A DNA stretch of 64,000 nucleotides from Tetraselmis striata (taxonomy: Eukaryota > Chlorophyta > Chlorodendrophyceae > Chlorodendrales > Chlorodendraceae). Under the pieces are notes generated by a model that was given only the letters and a program-made list of their open reading frames with translations, did not search any database and was not told the DNA's origin. Made by a program: the position numbers and the translations under genes. Positions 48,456 to 59,545 of the stretch are shown here, one piece after another (position 1 is the first letter of the stretch; each line of letters begins with the position of its first letter). Location: positions 1 through 64,000 of the forward strand of contig VCJN01003014.1 of NCBI GenBank assembly GCA_006384855.1, read 5' to 3'.

Positions 48456-49930
48456 ACCTCGTAATTGATATGGTAGGATGACCCGTAATCGCGATTTTCT
48501 CAGGGAATGGGCGTGTAATAATCGCCACTTTCAGCTAGGCTCGGTAGTCGCAATGGCGCGCCCGGCTCGCACGCGTTCGTTCCGTGATATGCTACTAGTA
48601 GCATGTTGTGCCATCCCCATAGTTCATTGCACCCACATCGCGCGGCTACCTGTAATCGTTGGGACTTTCGCCGCACTGAACTCTGATGCATCACAAGCTC
48701 CGGGACGACGCAACGGCCAACGGTACCGTAGGTCTCAAGCCGGCTAAATTGCTGCAAGTCGCGCGGATAGTTTACCATGCATCGCACTAGCGCCGGAGCG
48801 CCAGTGACTAGCCCATGCCAACCACGCCGCTGCGAGCAGCCACCGGCGCCGAGTAATGGTGGGCCATGGGGCGTTGCAACTCGAAGCGCCGTATTCCTGA
48901 GGGCAAGTAGGGCTGGACGCTTGCCGAGGATACTCAGGAAGAGGCGACCAAGAGAATATGCTGCCGCGCGCCGTGTGGTGCCTCTTTCACGAATACTGTG
49001 TTCTACGACAAGCACATATGGGCGTGCGGCACGGAGCCTCCGTCCACCGCCGCGCCTGTCGCAGCAAGCCGGAGGTGATGGCGCCCTTGCGATAGCTGCT
49101 GCAGCACCGTACGGCCGTCACCCCTCTGCTCCGTCCGGACCCGGTCAGACAGAAACGCAGGGCGAGCCGGGTCCATCGATAATGTCGCCGCCGCCATCGC
49201 CCCCACCGCCCTCTCCGCCGCTCTCATCTCCCATAAACGAATCAACGAGCCCGCACCCAGCGGCGCGGGGAAGAGTGTTCGGTGTCGTTTGATGGGGGGC
49301 TGGTAGCAAGTATGGCAGCGCGGGAGATGAATGCCGAGCTTCACGTGGGCGCTGTCATAATAACCAAGACGTTCGGGACGCGGGGGAGCTTTCTCGGCCT
49401 TGTCAACCCCCCCCCCCCCCTCTGTTGCCCTCCATGACGTGTAGTTACCCCTGCCATAGGCCCACCGCCGCCCTGTGATAGCCGCCGTGTGTATCACCCA
49501 ACATTCAGGTCGTCAGTTGGAGATGGGATAACGAGAACGCAGACCCGGCGGATAGGGAGCTGGGATGAAGGTGATTGACGACGACAGCGACTCGGAAGAG
49601 CTAACTGAGTCGGAGATCCAACCGCTATACATGACGACAGAGCAGCTGAGCGATTGCATTTGCAGGTTGGATCAAGGCGCCATTAATGCCCCACCGGCGG
49701 TGCGCCCCTTACGCATGCACCGCCTATGCTTTTTGGGGGGTGCTTGCCCGCGTTGTTGCCCCATAGTTTAGGTATTGGTGAGAGTAGTATTGCACTTGCA
49801 ACGTGCAAACGATGAGTTCTTGTGTCTCCTTATTACACGCGCGTTCGTTTAGTTGCTTGCACGCATGTGCATCTGACAAGAGCTACGCGAGCTTCTCGAC
49901 GCCGACAGCGACACCGATAGCGACATTGTC
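48456..49930 (+). repeat. direct repeat L with broken gene segments
   Basis: Diverged direct duplicate of 58005-59545. Both copies contain the non-coding lead-in (GGAATGGGC...TAATCGCCACTTT...CTAGGCT), a short segment encoding (R/C)NSKRRIPE, an exon-like piece with 'NAELHV..VI..TKTFGT.GSFLG' (49312-49405) and a second with 'MKVIDDDSDSEELTESEI' (49565-49620). The pattern 'K.FG..G.F.G.V' followed by 'Y.DGD.EEL...E' resembles small Tudor-like domains common in plant and algal proteins. Frames between the pieces are broken, so I call it a repeat with pseudogene content. Confidence 0.6.
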
Positions 49931-50391: not shown

Positions 50392-50396
50392 CCTTC
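50392..50396. repeat. Gypsy target-site duplication, left
   Basis: CCTTC, repeated at 56343-56347 just after the 3' LTR. Five bp is typical for Ty3/Gypsy integrases. Confidence 0.9.
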
Positions 50397-50773
50397 TGTT
50401 AGGACTACACCTAACCCTGCACTATACCCACATAACCACTTATCTCATATTACTATCATTTCCTATATCATATCATTACCTGCCGTACTTCTGTAACTCG
50501 TACTGTAACATGTACGCATACCATTAACCATTATCAATCCCAATCACCAATGCTACTACTAACAGTCCCCGATGCTGCTACTGACATTCCCCGATGCTAT
50601 ATCTCCACAATGACCAAGACTGACCGCTGAACTGCTCTGCCGCCGCTCTGCCTCTGTGCTGCTGACTACCGATAAATAGCTGAACCAGCTGATGATTCTG
50701 TAACATTCGATACTGTTTCCTCACAACCTTTGCCTTCGCCTCTAATTGCATTAGAGCACTACTGTACCTTACA
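50397..50773 (+). repeat. 5' LTR
   Basis: 377 bp, begins TGTTAGGAC and ends CCTTACA (TG...CA). Identical by eye to 55966-56342. Just inside it, 50775-50792 (TGGTTTCGTTCGAGCTCT) is in the position of a tRNA primer-binding site, but I cannot name the tRNA. Confidence 0.93.
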
Positions 50774-51343
50774 TTGGTTTCGTTCGAGCTCTGGTTAAAG
50801 ATCCCCGCCGCGCTTCCACCGCGTATGATCCCCCCCCCCCCCCCCCCCCCCCGCCATCGTGAACGACCAGCCTATCACTGCCGCCGCCGCTGCCGCTAAC
50901 CATCGAAGTACAGATTGACACCGCCCGGTGGCCCGCGTGATCCGGGCCTAGCTGGCCAAACCAACAACCCGCGCCCTAGCCACGGACATCATCCACGCAT
51001 CGCCAATGGACGTAACTTCGCCCCCCCCCCCCCCCCCCCCCCCCCCACCGCCGCGCCCGCGCGCTTCCCCTGCCAACGACATCCCTACCGATCGACGCCG
51101 TCCGAGCCTTCCAGCTGCTACCCTGGACACCCTTCGTTGCCACCTTGAAACTGTCGACGCTGAATTCGCCGCTATGGCTTGGCCGGATATTGCCGTTATG
51201 CTGAAACCTGGTCTGGCTATAGTAAAGTAGGCCATTCTGTTATAGTCTGCCCTAAGACGAACCTCGCTGACAAAAGCTTAACAAGCTAAAGTGGCTGCCA
51301 CCGAAACCTCTAAGGGTCTTGAGGCCATGAACCTGAATGACCA
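50774..51343 (+). pseudogene. gag remnant
   Basis: Only about 190 codons lie between the LTR and the next ORF, too few for a normal Ty3/Gypsy Gag. Two long C runs (50830-50852, 51021-51046) lie in it. The frame that runs into the methyltransferase ORF encodes 'GYSKVGHSVIVCP' (51212-51250), which looks like the second half of a CCHC zinc knuckle with the first Cys positions lost. Four stop codons then separate it from the ORF. The capsid domain appears deleted. Confidence 0.5.
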
Positions 51344-52327
51344 ATGACGGGTTGGGGCGGAGTATGCTGTCAGCATTCGAGTTATAATTCAATCGAATTT
51401 GTCCCAGCTCCGCCGTGTTATCCCCCGACCTCTGAGGCCCGATCTCCAATGGCACTGAATCCGGACGAGAATAGCCCGGCTACCGCCGCCCTAGTGGCTG
51501 ATGCACAAGCTGAGGCCTCCTCGGTATTGCCCACCGAGTCGTACGAACCAGAGTCGCTCACCAGCGAGCAGGTTCGTAGGTCCCTGTCTGCCGCTGACTT
51601 TGCCATCCCTGCGGACAATCCAACCGAGGGCCTGTCTCGTACTGAGAAACGTTCTGCTATCGACAATTCCGCCAACGCCAGTACGCTAAACAGCGGCGGG
51701 ACTAAAAAGAATATCAACCGGCCACCTGCCTGCCCACCTGACTCTATTCGTTTTGATAAAACTGAAATGTCTCGACTAAATTCTGAATATGGTCCCATAA
51801 CTCTGGACGCTTGTGCCTCTGCGTTTGACGCTGTTTGCCCTGAGTACTGCTCTAAAGATAAACCCTTTACCTCAACTTCAGCTATTGGTCATACTGTACT
51901 AATAAATCCACCATACGACGAATCAGTATTGCCGATTCTCGAACATTTTGAGTCTCAACGCCGGGAATCACCTTCTGACACCCGTGCTATAATCATTTTG
52001 CCCCGCTGGTCTTCTGACTTAGGGAAATCCTGGACCCCTATACTGAAAAAGTACAAACGACTCCATTCCTATCCCGCGGGTACCTACCTGTCCCACACTG
52101 CCACATCTGCCACTGAGGACTTGCCAACGCCACCCACACAGTGGATAGTTGACGTATACCTCGCAGATAGCACTGTCGAGGAACGTGAGGCTGCTGCTAT
52201 TAATTCTGTCATGGTCACTGAGGACTACAAAGCCCTCAGCTACGAATCGCAAGGTAAGACACACATCCCGCGTGCCCGACTCAAGTCGCACCAACCCCGC
52301 TTTGAAACACAAAAAGCCTTTATATAA
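51344..52327 (+). CDS. DNA N6-adenine methyltransferase-like (Dam/phage type) ORF in a Gypsy element
   Basis: 327 aa from the ATG at 51344; another good start is 51449. Residues 1-125 are Ser/Ala/Glu-rich and likely disordered. Residues about 135-275 match the layout of phage-type and DIRS-type DNA N6-adenine methyltransferases: 'EYGPITLDACASAFDAVCPE' (the L-D-A-C-A signature), then 'HTVLINPPYDESVLPIL' with the catalytic N-P-P-Y tetrad, then 'AIIILPRWSSD' and 'WIVDVYL'. These enzymes transfer methyl from SAM to adenine N6 in DNA. The frame has no stop, and the motif is intact although the neighbouring pol is broken. It sits where the end of gag is expected, before the protease. Such a domain is known in DIRS elements; I know of no standard place for it in Ty3/Gypsy. 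Activity is inferred only. Confidence 0.75.
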   Translation: MTGWGGVCCQHSSYNSIEFVPAPPCYPPTSEARSPMALNPDENSPATAALVADAQAEASSVLPTESYEPESLTSEQVRRSLSAADFAIPADNPTEGLSRTEKRSAIDNSANASTLNSGGTKKNINRPPACPPDSIRFDKTEMSRLNSEYGPITLDACASAFDAVCPEYCSKDKPFTSTSAIGHTVLINPPYDESVLPILEHFESQRRESPSDTRAIIILPRWSSDLGKSWTPILKKYKRLHSYPAGTYLSHTATSATEDLPTPPTQWIVDVYLADSTVEEREAAAINSVMVTEDYKALSYESQGKTHIPRARLKSHQPRFETQKAFI

Positions 52328-52332
52328 CGTCT

Positions 52333-52827
52333 ATGAACGACAACGATCTACTATTACTCAACCCAACTCTAGCTGAACACCCTGCTTTACCGCCCGCTAT
52401 AATGCTCGATAGCGGCGCTACCCTTTGCTTTATTGATGAACGGTATGTCCGCCTAAACAAATTACCGACTCAAACTCTAAATGATAAAATACGGATCGTC
52501 ATGGCTGATGGCCGCCTCTCTCTCGCGGCTAAATCGTGCACCCTCAAGTTAAACATAAACGGTTATACGGCTACAGTTGAATTTATCGTTACTACACTAC
52601 AGAACTCGTTCAACTGTACACTAGGCATGTCCTTCCTAAAATCGCACAACCCCGATATTGATTGGGCAACCGGTAAATTAACTTTTCACGATGGCAGTGA
52701 AATAACCTGCCCAACTCAATCCCGCGAATCTAACGTCGATATCGTTCACGCTAATGCTATGGCTCGTGAAATAAAGCGAAAAGATCCGAATACTGTATTT
52801 TTTCTGCGCAATCCTAAAAGAATATGA
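52333..52827 (+). CDS. aspartic protease of the Gypsy element
   Basis: 165 codons, starting 5 bp after the methyltransferase stop in another frame. The retropepsin active site is '[13 protein letters not shown]' (about residues 23-35), and the later '[18 protein letters not shown]' matches the region before the flap partner in Ty3 proteases. It would cleave the Gag-Pol polyprotein. The frame changes at an A-run near 52815 into the RT frame; whether this is decay, sequencing error or ribosomal frameshifting is unclear. Confidence 0.85.
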
Positions 52828-54360
52828 CGCTACTGAAACAACTACCGCGGAAGAAATTGACTCCGACATCGCAGCGGTGACTACTGACCACAGCACAGAA
52901 TACACTAAACAGGTACAATCTATACTGCTTAAGCACCGCTCTATTTGCCAACCTCTTGACTCCCTACCGCGCTCACGCCCTGGCCTCGACCTTGAAATAC
53001 CACTAACCGAAAATTCATCTGTTCCGGCCGGAAAAATCTACCGACTTTCACCCGCTGAATTAGAGGAATTAAAAAAAAAACTTAACAGCTTCTTAGAGAA
53101 GGGTTTTATCCGTGAATCTTTCTCTCCCTTTGCCGCCCCTGTCCTTTTTCGCTCGAAAGGCAAACGGCGGCCTCCGCATGTGCATCGACTACCGTCAACT
53201 TAACAAATACACCAAACGAATCGAGTTTCCGGTACACAACGCGGACATGCTACTCGATATGCTGTCTGGTGCTGCAGTTTACTCTGCTCTCGACCTTGCT
53301 CTAGGATACCACCAACTTCGCATCAAAGACTCTGACGTACAAAAAACTTCGTTTAAATGCCAGTTCGGCCAGTTCGAGTTTCTAGTAATGCCCTTTGGCC
53401 TCACAAACGCCCCCTCTGCCTTCCAATGCTGGATGAACCATGTACTACAGCCTCACAAAAACACCTTTATCCTCGTTTACCTTGACGACGTTTTAATCTT
53501 CAGCAACTCTCTCGACGAACACCTCCACCATCTCGACATCACACTCGGCTTACTGGCGCAGCATGATATACGACTACGATTATCTAAGTGCTTTTTCGGT
53601 AAACACGAGCTCGAGTACTTAGGACACATGGTCAGCAAAACTGGCCTACGCCCCTCTGATAATAAAGTCTCCGCCGTTATGAACTGGTCCCCACCGCGAT
53701 CTGTTCAGCAGGTCCAACAGTTCCTAGGCTTTTGCAATTTTTACCGCCGTTACATACACAAATACTCTCACTTAGCTGCACCCCTTTACAACATTACTCG
53801 CAAAAAAAAAAACTTTCGAGTGGGGTGTACGCCAACACACTGCTTTTAATGCACTGACACGCGCGCTCTGCTCTGCCCCTGTACTAATAAGTCCTAAAAA
53901 ACCGGTCCTGACGCGGAATTCGTCATATCCACGGATGCCAGTAAATACGCCTTAGGCGCGGTTCTTTTACAAAAAGACGGTTCCAACAAGTTACGCCCGT
54001 GCGCTTACTTTGCCAAAATACTACAACCTGCTCACACAAATTATCCTACATATGACCAAGAACTATTAGGTGTTGTCTGCGCGCTTAAAAATGGCGCTGC
54101 TATATCGAAGGTGCTGCTAAGATTACAGTAATCACCGATCATGCCACCTTACGTCATTTACCAACTCAAGATGCCCTCGGCCGCCGCCACGCCCTCTGGC
54201 TCTCTGACAGTTCACCTTACCTTGCCATCTCAACCCGCACTCAAAAACCTATTCTGTCAATGCTTTACCGCAAAGGTAGTCAAAATGAAGCTGACGCCCT
54301 ATCCCGCCGATCTAATCTTAAACATGATGTCCTCGCCGCTGAGGAAAAAATACTTAAACT
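52828..54360 (+). pseudogene. reverse transcriptase and RNase H (frameshifted)
   Basis: RT fingers and palm: '[12 protein letters not shown]', 'YSALDLALGYHQLRI', 'FLVMPFGLTNAPSAFQ' and the catalytic 'LVYLDDVLIFS' (about 53470-53505). RNase H: 'FVISTDASKYALGAVLLQKD' (first Asp), 'YDQELLGVV' (Glu) and 'VITDHATLRHL' (Asp). The frame shifts near 53150 (T5), 53805 (A11), 53895 (A6) and 54085 (A5), all in homopolymers. Conserved motifs survive on both sides of every break, so the element was recently functional or the breaks are base-calling errors. Confidence 0.88.
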
Positions 54361-54539
54361 CCGAACTAGAGGATATGCATGATTTTCTCTCGTCTATGTG
54401 TCACCTGCAAGTTGACTCCTCACTGCTTAACCGTACTCGCCACGGCTATAGCATTGATGCAAATTATTCAGGCCCCGTATTCATGTTGATGTCAACTTTG
54501 ACTCTACCGATAACCTTTATTGGATGGCTGATAAAATAT

Positions 54540-55440
54540 TTGCATACCTACTGCCGATAAACAAATCATGCACTCTATAATACACGAATATCATGATATT
54601 GCTGGATACCCGGACGCCCGACGCACTTTACTCAAATATTTCGAAAACGTTCTCACCTGATGGCCACGCATGAACAAAGATATATAAAAACAAATACTGC
54701 AAAAATATTGCTCCACCTGTCAACGCATTAAGGCTTCTACCCAAAAACCACCCGGTATATTATTTCCGTTACCAAAAGCCTCTCGACCATTGGGAGATTA
54801 TTTCAATGGATTTTATTATAGGCCTCCCTTTACAAGACGGCTATGATGCTATTGCAACCTTTGTCTGCACCTTTTCGACACAAGCCCACTTTATTCCCTG
54901 CGACATGTCTATTGACGCTCCCCAATTGGCCAAACTGTTTCTAAATAACATCTACCGTCATCACGGCCTGTGCCGCACTATTATTTCCGACCGTGATCCC
55001 CGTTTTACCTCCGCATTTTGGCAATCCTTATTTCGCTCTCTCAAAACAAAGTTGAAACATATCATCATCATACCACCCTAAAACTGACGGCCAAACTGAA
55101 TTTACCCACCGCACTGTTGAACAAATACTTCGCGCTTTTGTGCATAACAATCATGATGACTGGTAGAATACCCTTTGCTGAATCTCATATAATAACTCCA
55201 CCCACTCCGCCAAATCACACTCCCTTTGAAGCCGTGTATGGCCTAAATCCGTTAACCCCTGCCAGTCTTTTACACCAAACCCCGAATACAAACCACCCAC
55301 ACCTTGACCTCTTACATACTATACATGATACTCATGCCCTTATAACCGAACAGCTGAAATTAGCCGACGAATACCAAAAAGCTTATGCAAACAACTGTAC
55401 CCGACCAGAAATGTTTTTTGAAGGGTAATAAGGTATGGCT
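54540..55440 (+). pseudogene. integrase core (frameshifted, with stops)
   Basis: N-terminal zinc-binding region ('IHEYHDIAGYPDARRTLL' then 'CSTCQRI'). The core follows: 'EIISMDFIIGLPLQDGYDAI' (first Asp), 'RTIISDRDPRFTSAFW' (second Asp) and a 'TDGQTE' segment in a shifted frame (Glu). Two in-frame stops in the zinc-binding region (a TGA at about 54658 and a TAA at about 54687) and at least two frame changes (near 54790 and 55075) break it. Confidence 0.85.
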
Positions 55441-55888
55441 GTCCACTGAACACCTCCTATTACAAAATCAACCAACTAACAAATTTCGTCAACGTTTTCT
55501 TGGCCCTTATCCTATTGTTCGTAAAATTTCACCTCAAGCTTACCACATACGTTTACCCCACACAATGGAATGCCACCCTGTGTTTCACATTTCCCGCCTT
55601 CGTCGCTATCACTCCCCTGATGTTCCACCCGACACTGTCCCTGGTCGAACTGCTCTACCAGCAGATGAATTTATCATAGACCAAATCCTCAACCACCGTA
55701 TCGAATATAACAACGACAACCTTGACTACTCCCGCGGCCATGCACCTCTGTTCCTAGTCCGTTGGCAAAGCTATGACGGATCCCATGCCTCATGGGAACC
55801 ATATCAAAGTCTTCGTCGTGTTGATATGCTACACCTATATGCAGACAAATCTCAGTCCTTGCGTGACTTATTCCACACACCACACTAA
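55385..55888 (+). CDS. integrase C-terminus with chromodomain
   Basis: Open segment ending at the stop 55886-55888. The first part has 'KFRQRFLGPYPIVRKISPQA' and 'HPVFHISRLRRY', the GPY/F module of Ty3/Gypsy integrases. It ends in a chromodomain (about residues 95-155): 'EFIIDQILNHRI' ... 'FLVRWQSYDGSHASWEPYQS'. Chromodomains in chromoviruses read histone methyl marks and direct insertion into heterochromatin. Two cage aromatics (W, Y of 'RWQSY') are present; the first is Phe in place of Tyr. Confidence 0.88.
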   Translation: MQTTVPDQKCFLKGNKVWLSTEHLLLQNQPTNKFRQRFLGPYPIVRKISPQAYHIRLPHTMECHPVFHISRLRRYHSPDVPPDTVPGRTALPADEFIIDQILNHRIEYNNDNLDYSRGHAPLFLVRWQSYDGSHASWEPYQSLRRVDMLHLYADKSQSLRDLFHTPH

Positions 55889-55953
55889 CGCAACTTGCAT
55901 TCCAAATATCCGGCCCGCTTCCCCTTGAAAATACCGTAGCTATTTTTTTCCGT

Positions 55954-55965
55954 GAGGGGAAGGAA
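55954..55965 (+). other. polypurine tract
   Basis: GAGGGGAAGGAA immediately upstream of the 3' LTR; primes plus-strand DNA synthesis in LTR elements. Confidence 0.88.
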
Positions 55966-56342
55966 TGTTAGGACTACACCTAACCCTGCACTATACCCAC
56001 ATAACCACTTATCTCATATTACTATCATTTCCTATATCATATCATTACCTGCCGTACTTCTGTAACTCGTACTGTAACATGTACGCATACCATTAACCAT
56101 TATCAATCCCAATCACCAATGCTACTACTAACAGTCCCCGATGCTGCTACTGACATTCCCCGATGCTATATCTCCACAATGACCAAGACTGACCGCTGAA
56201 CTGCTCTGCCGCCGCTCTGCCTCTGTGCTGCTGACTACCGATAAATAGCTGAACCAGCTGATGATTCTGTAACATTCGATACTGTTTCCTCACAACCTTT
56301 GCCTTCGCCTCTAATTGCATTAGAGCACTACTGTACCTTACA
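55966..56342 (+). repeat. 3' LTR
   Basis: 377 bp, TGTTAGGAC...CCTTACA, no difference seen from the 5' LTR. Confidence 0.93.
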
Positions 56343-56347
56343 CCTTC
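56343..56347. repeat. Gypsy target-site duplication, right
   Basis: CCTTC, identical to 50392-50396. Confidence 0.9.
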
Positions 56348-58004
56348 CGCGTGGTTCGACCCAACGTTGCGCATGCTGCCCCTGTCCGTCACGTGCAGTC
56401 CCCGCCGGTCGAGGTGCAAGACGAGCCGGCAGTCGTTGAGGACGAGGCGCTGGCCATTGACGACGATGCACGAGGACGACAAGCCCGGAGAATGGTAGCG
56501 GCCCCAACGAAGACGACGACTCCTTCTGGGAATACGACAACATGGACGGCAACACAGACGAACCAATTGAAGCTGCCGCCGACCCGCCTGCGGCTGGGCC
56601 TGTCGCCGCCGCCGCCGCCGAGCAGGCGAATACTGCGCCCCATTCGAAGACCCAATGGCTACTTGGCGAGGCGGTCACTGTGGTAAAGGCCGTGTTGGCT
56701 GCCGACAAGACAGAGCCCAAAACCACTCAAGTCCCACTAGCCTCCGCCCAGCATGTCTCGTAATTACATTGTAATGGCCCGTATTCGCGATTTTCCCAGG
56801 AATGGGCTTGTAATCGCTATATATACCGTATAATATCCACTTTTCTGCTAGGCTCGGTAGTCGCAAAGAAGTCCCCAAGTTGACTACCGTCAATGCCTCT
56901 CACATTCATGTTGTCCACACCAGGGCAAGCAATCGGAAGCTCTATCTTTGCACCTCGTACTTCAAACAGAGGGACAACACTAAGCATAACGATAACTTCA
57001 TACCTAACCCACATCGCAACATGCTCACCCACACCAACTAGTCGCCGCTCAACAATGGTTAACTTCGCTGGCGGGACAGGGATACCCGTAGGGAAGCATT
57101 TCATATTCCACCAAGTTGGTGGCTTGTCCTCCCCCCTATCACCTTTCGAACTGGCACAGGTCCTCTACGGCTGAAAAATCTTCAGTCTAAAGGGCAGTGC
57201 GCCTATTATATGGGATCTTTCGTGTGGGGATTTGCTTCCACCTGGAGTCCTCTGCGAAGGTATGGTGGAAGGCATGGGCACTCGTCGCTTAAAACGGTCC
57301 GGACACTTAGGGGGGTGTCGCAGGCCGTACATCGGCCGTGCGCGGGGGATAGGTCGTTGAGTCGCTCAGCGGCGCAGCGCACGCATCGCCAAGAACCAGA
57401 CATAATGCACCTGCACACAACAACATAAATAATGCACACACCACAGGTCACATAGGGGGTCGACACATATTCTGACCGGCAGAAACTTTGATGTGGTTCT
57501 ATACTGCCGGATTCTGAAAGTTTGACTAGGGCGGGTGCCTGATTTGGACCAGGGACCACTTTGACAGCGAGGGGAGGAGGGTCGCGGTTAGGCAGAAAGT
57601 CGAATGCGCACTGTGACTTGCCCGCGCTCACCTGACAAGCTTCGGCCGTGCTCCGCCTGGATGATGGCGAAAACCACCGTGGCGGCAGGCTTAAGTGTCC
57701 TTGAGACGTTGTGCCGGGCCTTGAGTGACCGAACCGTGTATGGTCGCCCCACGAGCGGCGGGCGTGGGCTGGGTGGTGATGGCCAACTGACTGTCCCGGG
57801 CGCGTCGCGTAAGCATACAGTTATGCGGGCCGCGGCGAGGGCTACTAATGTGCCGATACCGGTACCCTACTTTTAGCCGTGGGCAGGCGTCCAGCCCTCC
57901 TTCCCCTCAGGAATACGGCGCTTGGAGTTGCGACGCCCCATGGCACACCAGTACTTGGCGCCGGCGGCTCGCAGCGTGTGGGGGTGGGTATTTACACTAG
58001 CCTC
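56348..58004. other. interior of the inverted-repeat region
   Basis: 56351-56763 holds an acidic, Ala/Pro-rich open stretch (DDDSFWEYDNMDGNTDEP in one frame) that reads toward 50391 when the Gypsy is removed, so the insertion split a coding-like region. At 56740-56870 there is a third copy of the lead-in motif of repeats L and R. On the minus strand 57420-57330 encodes 'WRCVRCAAERLNDL...GRCTAC', similar to a C2-C2 zinc ribbon or RanBP2-type finger. At 57873-57960, also minus, the RRNSKRRIPEG segment recurs. No intact gene. Confidence 0.45.
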
Positions 58005-59545
58005 CCAGCCTGTCTCGTAATTACACTGTAATGGCCCGTAATCGTGATTATCCCACGGAATGGGCTTGTATTCGCCGTATCTACCGTGTAATCGCCACTT
58101 TTTTGCTAGGCTTGGTAGTCGAATTGGCGTGCCCGGCTGCCCGCGGTCCGTAATTCCTACCAGTATGTAGGCTACTAGTAGCATGTGCCATCCCCACAGT
58201 ATATTATACCCACATCGCGGCTCGCGCGGCAACCCGTAACGTGTAGCACTTTCGCCACACTGTACTTTAACGGCTCAGCACACGCTCCGTGACGACGCCG
58301 CAACGGCCAACGGCCTCAAACCGCCGGCTGAATTTCTGCAAGTCCCGCGGACATGTTACCATGCATCGCAGCAGCCGGAGCGCAAGTGACTAGCTCCTAC
58401 CCACCACCCCGCTCCTGCGAGCCGCCGGCGCCGAGTAATGGTGTGCCATGGGGCGTCGCAACTCCAAGCGCCGTATTCCTGAGGCCCTGAGGGCAAGGAG
58501 GGCTGGACGCCTGCCACGGGGATTTGGGAAGCGGCGGTAAAGAGAGTGCGCTGCGGCGCGTGTGGCGCCCCTGTCTCGAGGACTCGCTTCTACGACACTC
58601 ACAGATGGACGGAAGCGTGCGCCGAGCCTCCGGACGCCGCCGCGCCTGTCGCAGCCGGTGGTGATGGCGCCCCCGCGCCGCTACTGCACCGTACGTCCGC
58701 CATGCCTCTATAATCTGCTCCGTCCGGACCCGGTCAGACAGAAACGCGGGGCGAGCCGGGTGATGCATCGATGCTGTCGCCGCCGCCACCCCCCCCGCCT
58801 CTCTCTCCGCCGCTCCCGTCTCCCCGAAACGAATCAGCGAGCCCCACACTACGGCGGGGAGGGGCGTTCGGTGTCGCATGATGGTGGCCTGGCAGCAAGC
58901 ATGGCAGCGCAAGAATGGAATGCCGAGCTTCACGTCAGCACGGTCATAACCAAGACGTTCGGGACGCTGGGGAGCTTTCTCGGCCAAGTAGCCCCCCCCC
59001 CCCCGCCCCCACCCATGTTGCCCTCCTTGACGTCCCGTTACTACACCTGCCATAGGCCCACCGCCGCCATATGTGATATATAGCCACCCGTGTGTATCAC
59101 CCAACGTACATGTCGTCAGTTGGATATGGGATAACGAGGAGGCAGATAAGGCGGATCGGGAGCTGTTGATGAAGGTGATTTACACCGACGGCGACGAGGA
59201 AGAGCTAACCGAGTAGGAGATACAACCGCTATACCTGACAATAGAGCAGCTGAGCGATTTCACTCGCAGGTTGCCTCAAGGCGCCATTGACGACCTACCG
59301 GCGGTGCGCCCCTTGCGCACCCACCGACGGTGCCTTCAGGGGGTGCTTGCCCGCGTTGTTGCCCCATAGTTTACGTATTGGTAAGAATATCGCACTGGCG
59401 AGGTGCAAACGATGATTTGCTGAAGATGACGGTTACCCGCGCGTTCGTTTAGATGCTTGCGCGCATACATGTGCACTTGACAAGAGCTACGCAAACTTCT
59501 GGATGCCGACAGCGACGCCGATAGCGGCGCCGAAGGCATTGTCGC
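58005..59545 (+). repeat. direct repeat R with broken gene segments
   Basis: Duplicate of 48456-49930. Carries the same segments: MGRRNSKRRIPE (58449-), 'MAAQEWNAELHVSTVITKTF' (58901-) and 'MKVIYTDGDEEELTE' followed by an in-frame TAG (59213). A C run at 58990-59003 and diverged frames show decay. The two copies differ by several per cent plus indels, so the duplication is older than the Gypsy insertion. Confidence 0.6.

Follow-up and report, generated by a model that had tools for sequence, protein, structure and literature searches.

How does a methyltransferase of the kind that marks adenines in DNA come to sit inside a long terminal repeat (LTR) retrotransposon, and what could it be doing there? 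The question arises in a stretch of 64,000 nucleotides of the green alga Tetraselmis striata (contig VCJN01003014.1, positions 1 to 64,000, "the window" from here on), in which a Ty3/Gypsy chromovirus copy at 50397-56342 includes an open frame of 327 codons (51344-52327, forward strand) with the motif LDACAS and then NPPY. The frame and its motifs are as an earlier note on this DNA had described them. The answer that we favor, at about even confidence, is that the copy belongs to a group of chromoviruses whose Pol polyprotein starts with a descendant of the phage/DIRS-type adenine methyltransferase (MT), a domain delivered with Pol, presumably catalytic in the lineages that have NPPY or NPPF, where it would methylate the element's own nucleic acid, and probably repurposed without catalysis in the others.

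Is the frame more than an accident? A profile search of the genome (224 Mb in 2,903 contigs, with 134 of 1,356 candidates scored) finds at least 138 matches to the MT core at E <= 0.001, one of them in the window itself, and in 24 of the 138 places listed the frame stays open for at least 1,400 codons with zero stops inside. A chance open frame or a fusion present in a single copy, a possibility that the earlier note had raised, is ruled out by these numbers. The defective state of the window copy and the long C-runs beside its gag remnant would suit a passenger without function, or an accident of assembly in one copy, but this explanation has next to no probability given the number of places, the long open frames, the relatives in other sources, and the purifying selection in one of the families. 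A bacterial contaminant is also rejected: the domain sits in Pol beside Gypsy domains. Among the protein matches is a T. striata gene model (P0005, labeled jgi/Tetstr1); its final 50 residues are found exactly in locus L024 on contig C1254, and a second stretch matches at 97% about 2.3 kb away on that contig.

We distinguish three related families: A (the window copy and the intact L031, with NPPY), B (L032, with HPPY), and C (L068, which has gag, and L033, in which gag is broken, with NPVY). Their Pol frames run to about 1,525-1,534 codons (1,525 and 1,522 in the B loci L045 and L050). In intact copies the domain is the N-terminus of Pol, past the gag stop, and the Pfam order in L031 and L033 is MT, protease (PR), reverse transcriptase (RT), RNase H (RH), integrase (IN), SH3, and chromodomain. 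The place claimed for the domain, between gag and protease of a chromovirus, is thus kept in other full-length copies. L031 matches gag-asp_proteas, RVT_1, RNaseH, H2C2, rve, SH3_Tf2-1, and Chromo (35.4 bits, cut-off 25.1); its gag frame has a CCHC-like CSGCGKTGHSIMVC visible by eye and zero Pfam matches at E <= 0.01, and the gag of L068 matches zf-CCHC_3 at 22.3 bits (cut-off 27).

A fourth family, D (L073:1267-5886, G000:C2072), was found through integrase matches. Its gag has Ty3_capsid above cut-off and is followed by a frame of 1,539 codons with Dam, Nudix (25.5 bits, cut-off 21.1), PR, RT, RH, IN, and SH3; Chromo matches only weakly there (15.1 bits against a cut-off of 25.1). The Nudix domain lies between the MT (LNAPY) and the protease. 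This MT matches the A-C profile with an hhalign probability of 97 and is present in at least 150 genome places (150 of 1,167 candidates scored), 88 of those listed being identical in protein. In the list of H2C2 matches (150 of 1,266 scored) one locus of a new group was opened, L073, and an MT-like domain was present there too. A single-sequence model of the MT-Nudix part reached a mean predicted local distance difference test score (pLDDT) of 41 and was not used.

The window copy itself is defective, with gag mostly deleted and the pol frames broken. Of the element parts listed by the earlier note, the identical LTRs, the target duplication, PR, RT, and the chromodomain are there, and Pfam scores are above cut-off for PR, RT, the Tf2-type SH3, and Chromo; RH and IN are only broken pieces in the window, and exceed their cut-offs in L031. 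An alignment to the Pol of L031 spreads the window Pol over several frames. The MT does lie past a gag stop, but this gag is not intact: it matches only 104 of the 377 residues of the L031 gag frame, about 0.5 kb of gag is missing, and the distance from a primer-site-like TTGGTTTCG to the gag stop is 570 nt, versus 1,104-1,122 in copies whose gag is almost complete. That the LTRs are identical on such a body points to a recent mobilization in trans or to errors in the sequence. Gag-deleted or gag-broken sub-lineages are seen in family A (L001, which is the window copy, L013, L022, L025, L026, L027) and in family C (L033, L069), and full copies probably mobilized them in trans. The window also has 11 C-runs and 11 G-runs of at least 12 letters (lengths 12-26), including the C-runs 50830-50852 and 51021-51046, which may be real or an artefact of assembly or sequencing.

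Is the 327-codon frame then a gene with its own start? Its ATG (51344) shares letters with the TGA that ends gag (51345-51347). This ATG opens just 14 codons in 18 of the 25 family-A loci that could be read (out of 28; L011, L017, and L024 lacked the search pattern), so it is not the start used by the family, and a free-standing MT gene is ruled out. What had been taken as a separate frame is the N-terminus of Pol. The copies of the gag-deleted A sub-lineage have in common a small shift that brings the ATG into frame with the MT, and there, in the order of loci given above, the frame has 327, 516, 141, 145, 145, and 225 codons; because these lengths vary, a conserved free MT within that sub-lineage is rejected as well, and it looks like one in decay. 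In L007 the ATG is in frame with the MT (391 codons) through a different change.

How would the domain be produced? In families A (L003/L031), B (L030/L032), and C (L068), gag and Pol share one frame with a single stop between them. We counted stop contexts and motifs over L001-L028 for family A (28 loci) and L038-L067 for family B (30 loci); L029/L030, which are B loci retrieved with the A query, and L031-L034 were omitted as repeats. The stop context is UGA-CGG in 26/28 A loci (UGA-CGC in one, not found in one), in 22/30 B loci (UGA-UGG in four, not found in four), and in L033, L068, and L069 of family C. A helix begins exactly 8 nt past the stop in all three families, with arms GGCGGAG/CTCCGCC in A, GGCCAGT/ACTGGCC in B, and GGCGACATG/CATGTCGCC in C; the letters differ, while the offset and the pairing stay constant. 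Helices equally good are found in 114 (A), 142 (B), and 28 (C) of 5,000 shuffles, and the top-scoring helix in A is an overlapping one with G-U pairs. In type II readthrough, UGA is followed by CGG or CUA. For plant and animal RNA viruses, passages of PMC3542737 describe UGA-CGG with an extended stem-loop that lies some 8 nt downstream of the stop. The arrangement in A-C, here at the gag-pol junction of an algal LTR retrotransposon, has the same two parts and is likely a type II readthrough signal. The Tca2 retrotransposon is also gag-UGA-pol, and its junction alone gave no readthrough in yeast (according to the consulted part of PMC2194720). In family D, GGGAAAC lies just ahead of the gag stop in a phase fitting a -1 shift, a frameshift-like site that would take the place of stop readthrough. 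With probable readthrough junctions in A-C and a frameshift-like junction in D, we infer that the MT is produced only at the level of Pol.

What kind of methyltransferase is it? The best Pfam match of the window frame is Dam (PF05869), the family that the earlier note expected, at E 5.9e-5, but its 23.2 bits are under the curated cut-off of 28.1. A complete lack of profile matches to adenine methyltransferases, which the earlier note would have taken as a refutation, is thus not what is seen. Dam scores are 20.5 for the whole ORF2 and 23.0 for a part of it in L031 (A), 23.9 in P0006 (B), 21.8 in L033 and 24.6 in L068 (C), and 23.6 in L073 (D). Three homologues from other sources exceed the cut-off (P0001 31.3, P0003 31.6, P0007 28.4 bits), and another, P0008, has no Dam match at E <= 0.01. 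In PHROGs, the window frame matches the phage DNA methyltransferase phrog_111 (E 3.6e-4). Against NCBIfam TIGR01712 (phage_N6A_met, cut-off 97.05), P0001 scores 23.4, P0003 21.6, P0007 22.3, family D 17.6, and the DIRS locus L036 53.9 bits, with zero matches for the window frame. Thus phage N6-adenine methyltransferases are the top methyltransferase family in Pfam, PHROGs, and NCBIfam wherever any matched. They share with the Gypsy MTs the motif order and a similar spacing from D..A to NPPY/F. They differ in lacking a C-terminal block, KYK.IH.YP.G.YLF ... W.VDVYLAD.TVEER, that the Gypsy MTs add, and their identity to P0003, among the 15 rows shown, is about 28-35% across a third to half of its length. 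Motif IV in Dam enzymes is (D/N/S)PP(Y/F/W). The window and family A have motif I and motif IV in the expected order; motif IV departs from this form in B, C, and D. A PDB search by sequence gave no match and one by profile only implausible matches, and a scan of IMG/VR gave 39 pattern matches, of which none was confirmed.

The closest solved fold is that of PCIF1/CAPAM, a cap-specific adenosine-N6 methyltransferase, at 16-22% identity, and the window frame has a weaker Pfam match to PCIF1_WW (16.5 bits, below the cut-off of 31.1). Could the domain therefore be an RNA adenosine-N6 methyltransferase, marking the element's genomic RNA or a cap-proximal adenosine, in the particle or the cytoplasm, and in that way altering stability, packaging, or translation? 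We consider this quite unlikely. Pfam and NCBIfam put the phage DNA-adenine family first among methyltransferases; the domain would be made in Pol only, where the reverse transcript is at hand too; and to our knowledge there are few phage Dam structures in the PDB, which would bias the ranking of folds.

The catalytic motif is where the families part. Motif IV is NPPY in 22/28 A loci (TPPY in two, HPPY, TPQY, and SPPY in one each, unreadable in one), so that the loss of NPPY from all other copies, an outcome considered in the earlier note, is contradicted. In all six A loci without NPPY (L015, L017, L021, L023, L024, L028), the domain is interrupted by stops. In family B motif IV is HPPY in 29/30 loci and PPPY in the other; in family C it is NPVY (L033, L068, L069); and in family D it is NAPY. 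LDACAS is intact in 17/28 A and 29/30 B loci. Elsewhere we find NPPY in P0001, P0007, and P0009, NPPF in P0003, P0010, P0011, and P0016, NPVY in P0002, CPPF in P0008, CPMQ in P0018/P0019, and FPPI in P0023. Conservation of the catalytic motif holds for family A and is lost in B, C, D, and P0008. A "6mA writer," as the earlier note called it, would be the right description of some lineages at best, because the catalytic motif is not generally kept. The tree groups B with A and P0001 (94/87), which makes NPPY to HPPY the likely direction of change.

We can ask whether a domain that has lost its catalytic residue is still selected. Between the family-B loci L038 and L045, the MT (172 codons) differs by 11 changes that are synonymous and 2 that are not, a ratio of non-synonymous to synonymous rates (Ka/Ks) of 0.05, compared to 0.61 in the linker, 0.11 in PR, and 0.02 in the RT part; the contrast between linker and MT has a Fisher p of 0.006. 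The other cross-sub-lineage pairs give 0.05 (L038-L050) and 0.10 (L038-L049) for the MT, so that 3 of the 11 pairs run compare the two B sub-lineages. Pairs inside sub-lineages and inside A have too few changes, and comparisons across families are close to Ks saturation or have reached it. The low dN/dS anticipated for other copies is thus found for the MT of family B, with too few changes to tell in the family-A pair. The family-B MT is under purifying selection even though its catalytic Asn is a His, and the contrast within B indicates that the fold is kept in a family without the catalytic Asn.

Two explanations build on this. The first is that the captured MT became a standing part of Pol and had its motif IV replaced in several lineages, where its essential role would not be methylation, since the fold stayed, as did the SAM motif in B and C, and purifying selection acts where it was measured (in B). 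METTL14, a catalytically dead partner, is an analogue for such a repurposed MT. We put this explanation a little short of even chances. The second, which we consider rather unlikely, takes the domain as a pseudo-enzyme in all these retrotransposons, a helper of Pol or of the particle that binds S-adenosylmethionine (SAM) or nucleic acid, with the NPPY of family A as a leftover. It agrees with the replacement of motif IV in families that keep the domain in many intact copies (B, C, and D) and in P0008, P0019, and P0023, and with the Ka/Ks of family B, but drift would not have preserved NPPY or NPPF as widely as in 22/28 A loci, P0001, P0003, P0007, P0009, P0010, P0011, and P0016.

When did the domain enter? 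The earlier note had a chromovirus acquiring it, and the domain is not confined to one. The capture is old and is shared by no fewer than four families of this genome and by elements elsewhere. The identity of the MT to that of family A is 0.73 in B, 0.63 in C, 0.53 in P0007, 0.44 in P0008, and 0.28 in D; for IN the values are 0.72, 0.68, 0.62, 0.55, and 0.42. The two drop in step, as expected if the MT has traveled with Pol. The MT tree has a branch (100/99) with the Gypsy rows on one side and DIRS and phage on the other, and family D joins the Gypsy MTs at 95/93, with long branches. These trees are rooted for drawing only, their branches are long, and phage is represented by 3 proteins (80 records matched); the main one uses 11 of the 28 listed homologues (P0001-P0004, P0007-P0030), and the one with D uses 9, the rest being mostly fragments. 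Several joins are open, P0002 falling with A/B in the main tree and being unplaced in the tree with D, so any count of how often NPPY was lost independently is provisional.

For the capture of a phage/DIRS-type adenine MT by a chromovirus Pol, a possible mechanism can be drawn. Ribosomes would occasionally read through UGA-CGG, aided by the downstream stem, and in intact copies this would yield Gag-MT-PR-RT-RH-IN-chromodomain. The MT would be packaged into particles at the level of Pol, released by the protease, and bind both SAM and nucleic acid of the element. In the lineages with NPPY or NPPF, it might methylate N6 of adenines in the reverse transcript of the element itself, either ahead of integration or during it, with the chromodomain integrase selecting the insertion site. 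In the HPPY, NPVY, NAPY, and CPPF families the fold would be retained for a role that probably no longer needs catalysis.

Several observations weigh against this picture. Of the four families in this genome, three have an altered motif IV, and the most abundant one found is among these. All tested sequences of A, B, C, and D, the window included, are under the Pfam Dam cut-off, and those run against NCBIfam score far under the TIGR01712 cut-off or have no match. The stretch right after the SAM motif is poorly modeled (residues 59-67, pLDDT <50), and the closest solved fold being an RNA enzyme makes RNA as possible a substrate as DNA. The folding energies past the stop are unremarkable (z -0.06 in A and -0.65 in B), and the stem is broken in the C loci L033 and L069, where gag is broken too. 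Finally, the Ka/Ks contrast rests essentially on one comparison, between two B sub-lineages, and the family-A pair L003-L006 has an MT Ka/Ks of 0.61 from 3 changes only.

The same genome has DIRS-type elements with Dam domains (L035, L036 (G000:C1802, C103), and L037 (G000:C2142)), with what we take, from a motif, to be a tyrosine recombinase; one group has CNPPF and another, of 696 codons and many copies, has NAPF. DIRS1-like elements also have a Dam-type domain in a retroelement pol, but theirs comes after RT-RH, together with a tyrosine recombinase, whereas here the MT comes before PR in an element with LTRs, a DDE integrase, and a chromodomain; the LTRs and integrase domains of the window element set it apart from DIRS1-like elements. 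A passage of PMC3266345 stated in 2011 that the role of the DIRS MT was unknown, and we found no later answer on its function in the literature searched. Passages of PMC3266345 and PMC5890265 report adenine MTs in DIRS elements, and those of PMC5890265 report cytosine MTs in Gypsy and DIRS and describe no adenine methyltransferase in Gypsy. An excerpt of PMC6338049 loosely mentions DAM-/DCM-encoding Ty3/Gypsy and DIRS, with DAM named for DIRS and DCM for both. KnitGypsy-Dnmt3 of Klebsormidium is likewise a Gypsy with a methyltransferase in Pol under purifying selection (Ka/Ks < 0.2), but that enzyme is a C5-cytosine Dnmt3, structurally unrelated to adenine methyltransferases (PMC5890265, same passages). 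Orchid Ty3/Gypsy elements have also captured an N6-methyladenine enzyme, in this case an ALKBH5-like m6A demethylase, an eraser and not a writer, and of another family (PMC9289625, in the section consulted). In the portions of the literature that we searched there is no chromovirus with an adenine MT, no MT-Nudix pair, and no repeated change of the catalytic motif; an earlier mention in work on eukaryotic adenine methyltransferases is possible.

One green alga with related families that keep or replace the catalytic residue in otherwise intact polyproteins, which would be produced through a recognizable readthrough or frameshift signal, makes the role of MTs in retroelements testable. Should the cDNA or RNA of family A be methylated by its own MT, a single element would combine an adenine writer with a chromatin reader; should it not, the domain would have a new structural role. 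Table 1 gives the features of the window element.

Table 1. Features of the family-A chromovirus copy, in window coordinates.
Feature	Position	Strand	Basis
Target-site duplication CCTTC, left	50392..50396	.	Flank comparison
5′ LTR, 377 bp, TGTTAGG...TTACA	50397..50773	+	All 377 bases equal to the 3′ LTR
gag remnant, C-terminal pieces, frames broken	51107..51344	+	Alignment to L031 gag frame
gag stop TGA then CGG (likely type II readthrough context)	51345..51350	+	Context as in passages of PMC3542737
327-codon open frame with Dam-type adenine MT domain	51344..52327	+	Pfam match 51770-51961
Stem 5′ arm GGCGGAG, begins 8 nt past stop	51356..51362	+	
Stem 3′ arm CTCCGCC	51408..51414	+	
SAM-binding motif LDACAS	51803..51820	+	Frame translation; compared with relatives
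Catalytic motif IV NPPY	51905..51916	+	Frame translation; relatives carry variants
Aspartic protease (RVP_2), shifted relative to the MT frame	52333..52827	+	40.7 bits, cut-off 20.3
Reverse transcriptase core (RVT_1)	53112..53849	+	Pfam 108.6 bits
RNase H region, broken frames, limits approximate	53782..54530	+	Alignment to L031 Pol
Integrase region (H2C2 and core), broken frames, limits approximate	54065..55425	+	Alignment to L031 Pol
Tf2-type SH3 and chromodomain	55385..55888	+	SH3_Tf2-1 66.5 bits; Chromo 33.3 bits, cut-off 25.1
Polypurine-rich tract ahead of 3′ LTR	55952..55965	+	Sequence preceding LTR
3′ LTR	55966..56342	+	Same 377 bases as 5′ LTR
Target-site duplication CCTTC, right	56343..56347	.	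Flank comparison

Inverted repeats lie around the element, 48838-48925 with 57882-57969 (88 nt, 90%) and 57905-57974 with 58415-58484 (70 nt, 97%), and are perhaps an older repeat that received it.
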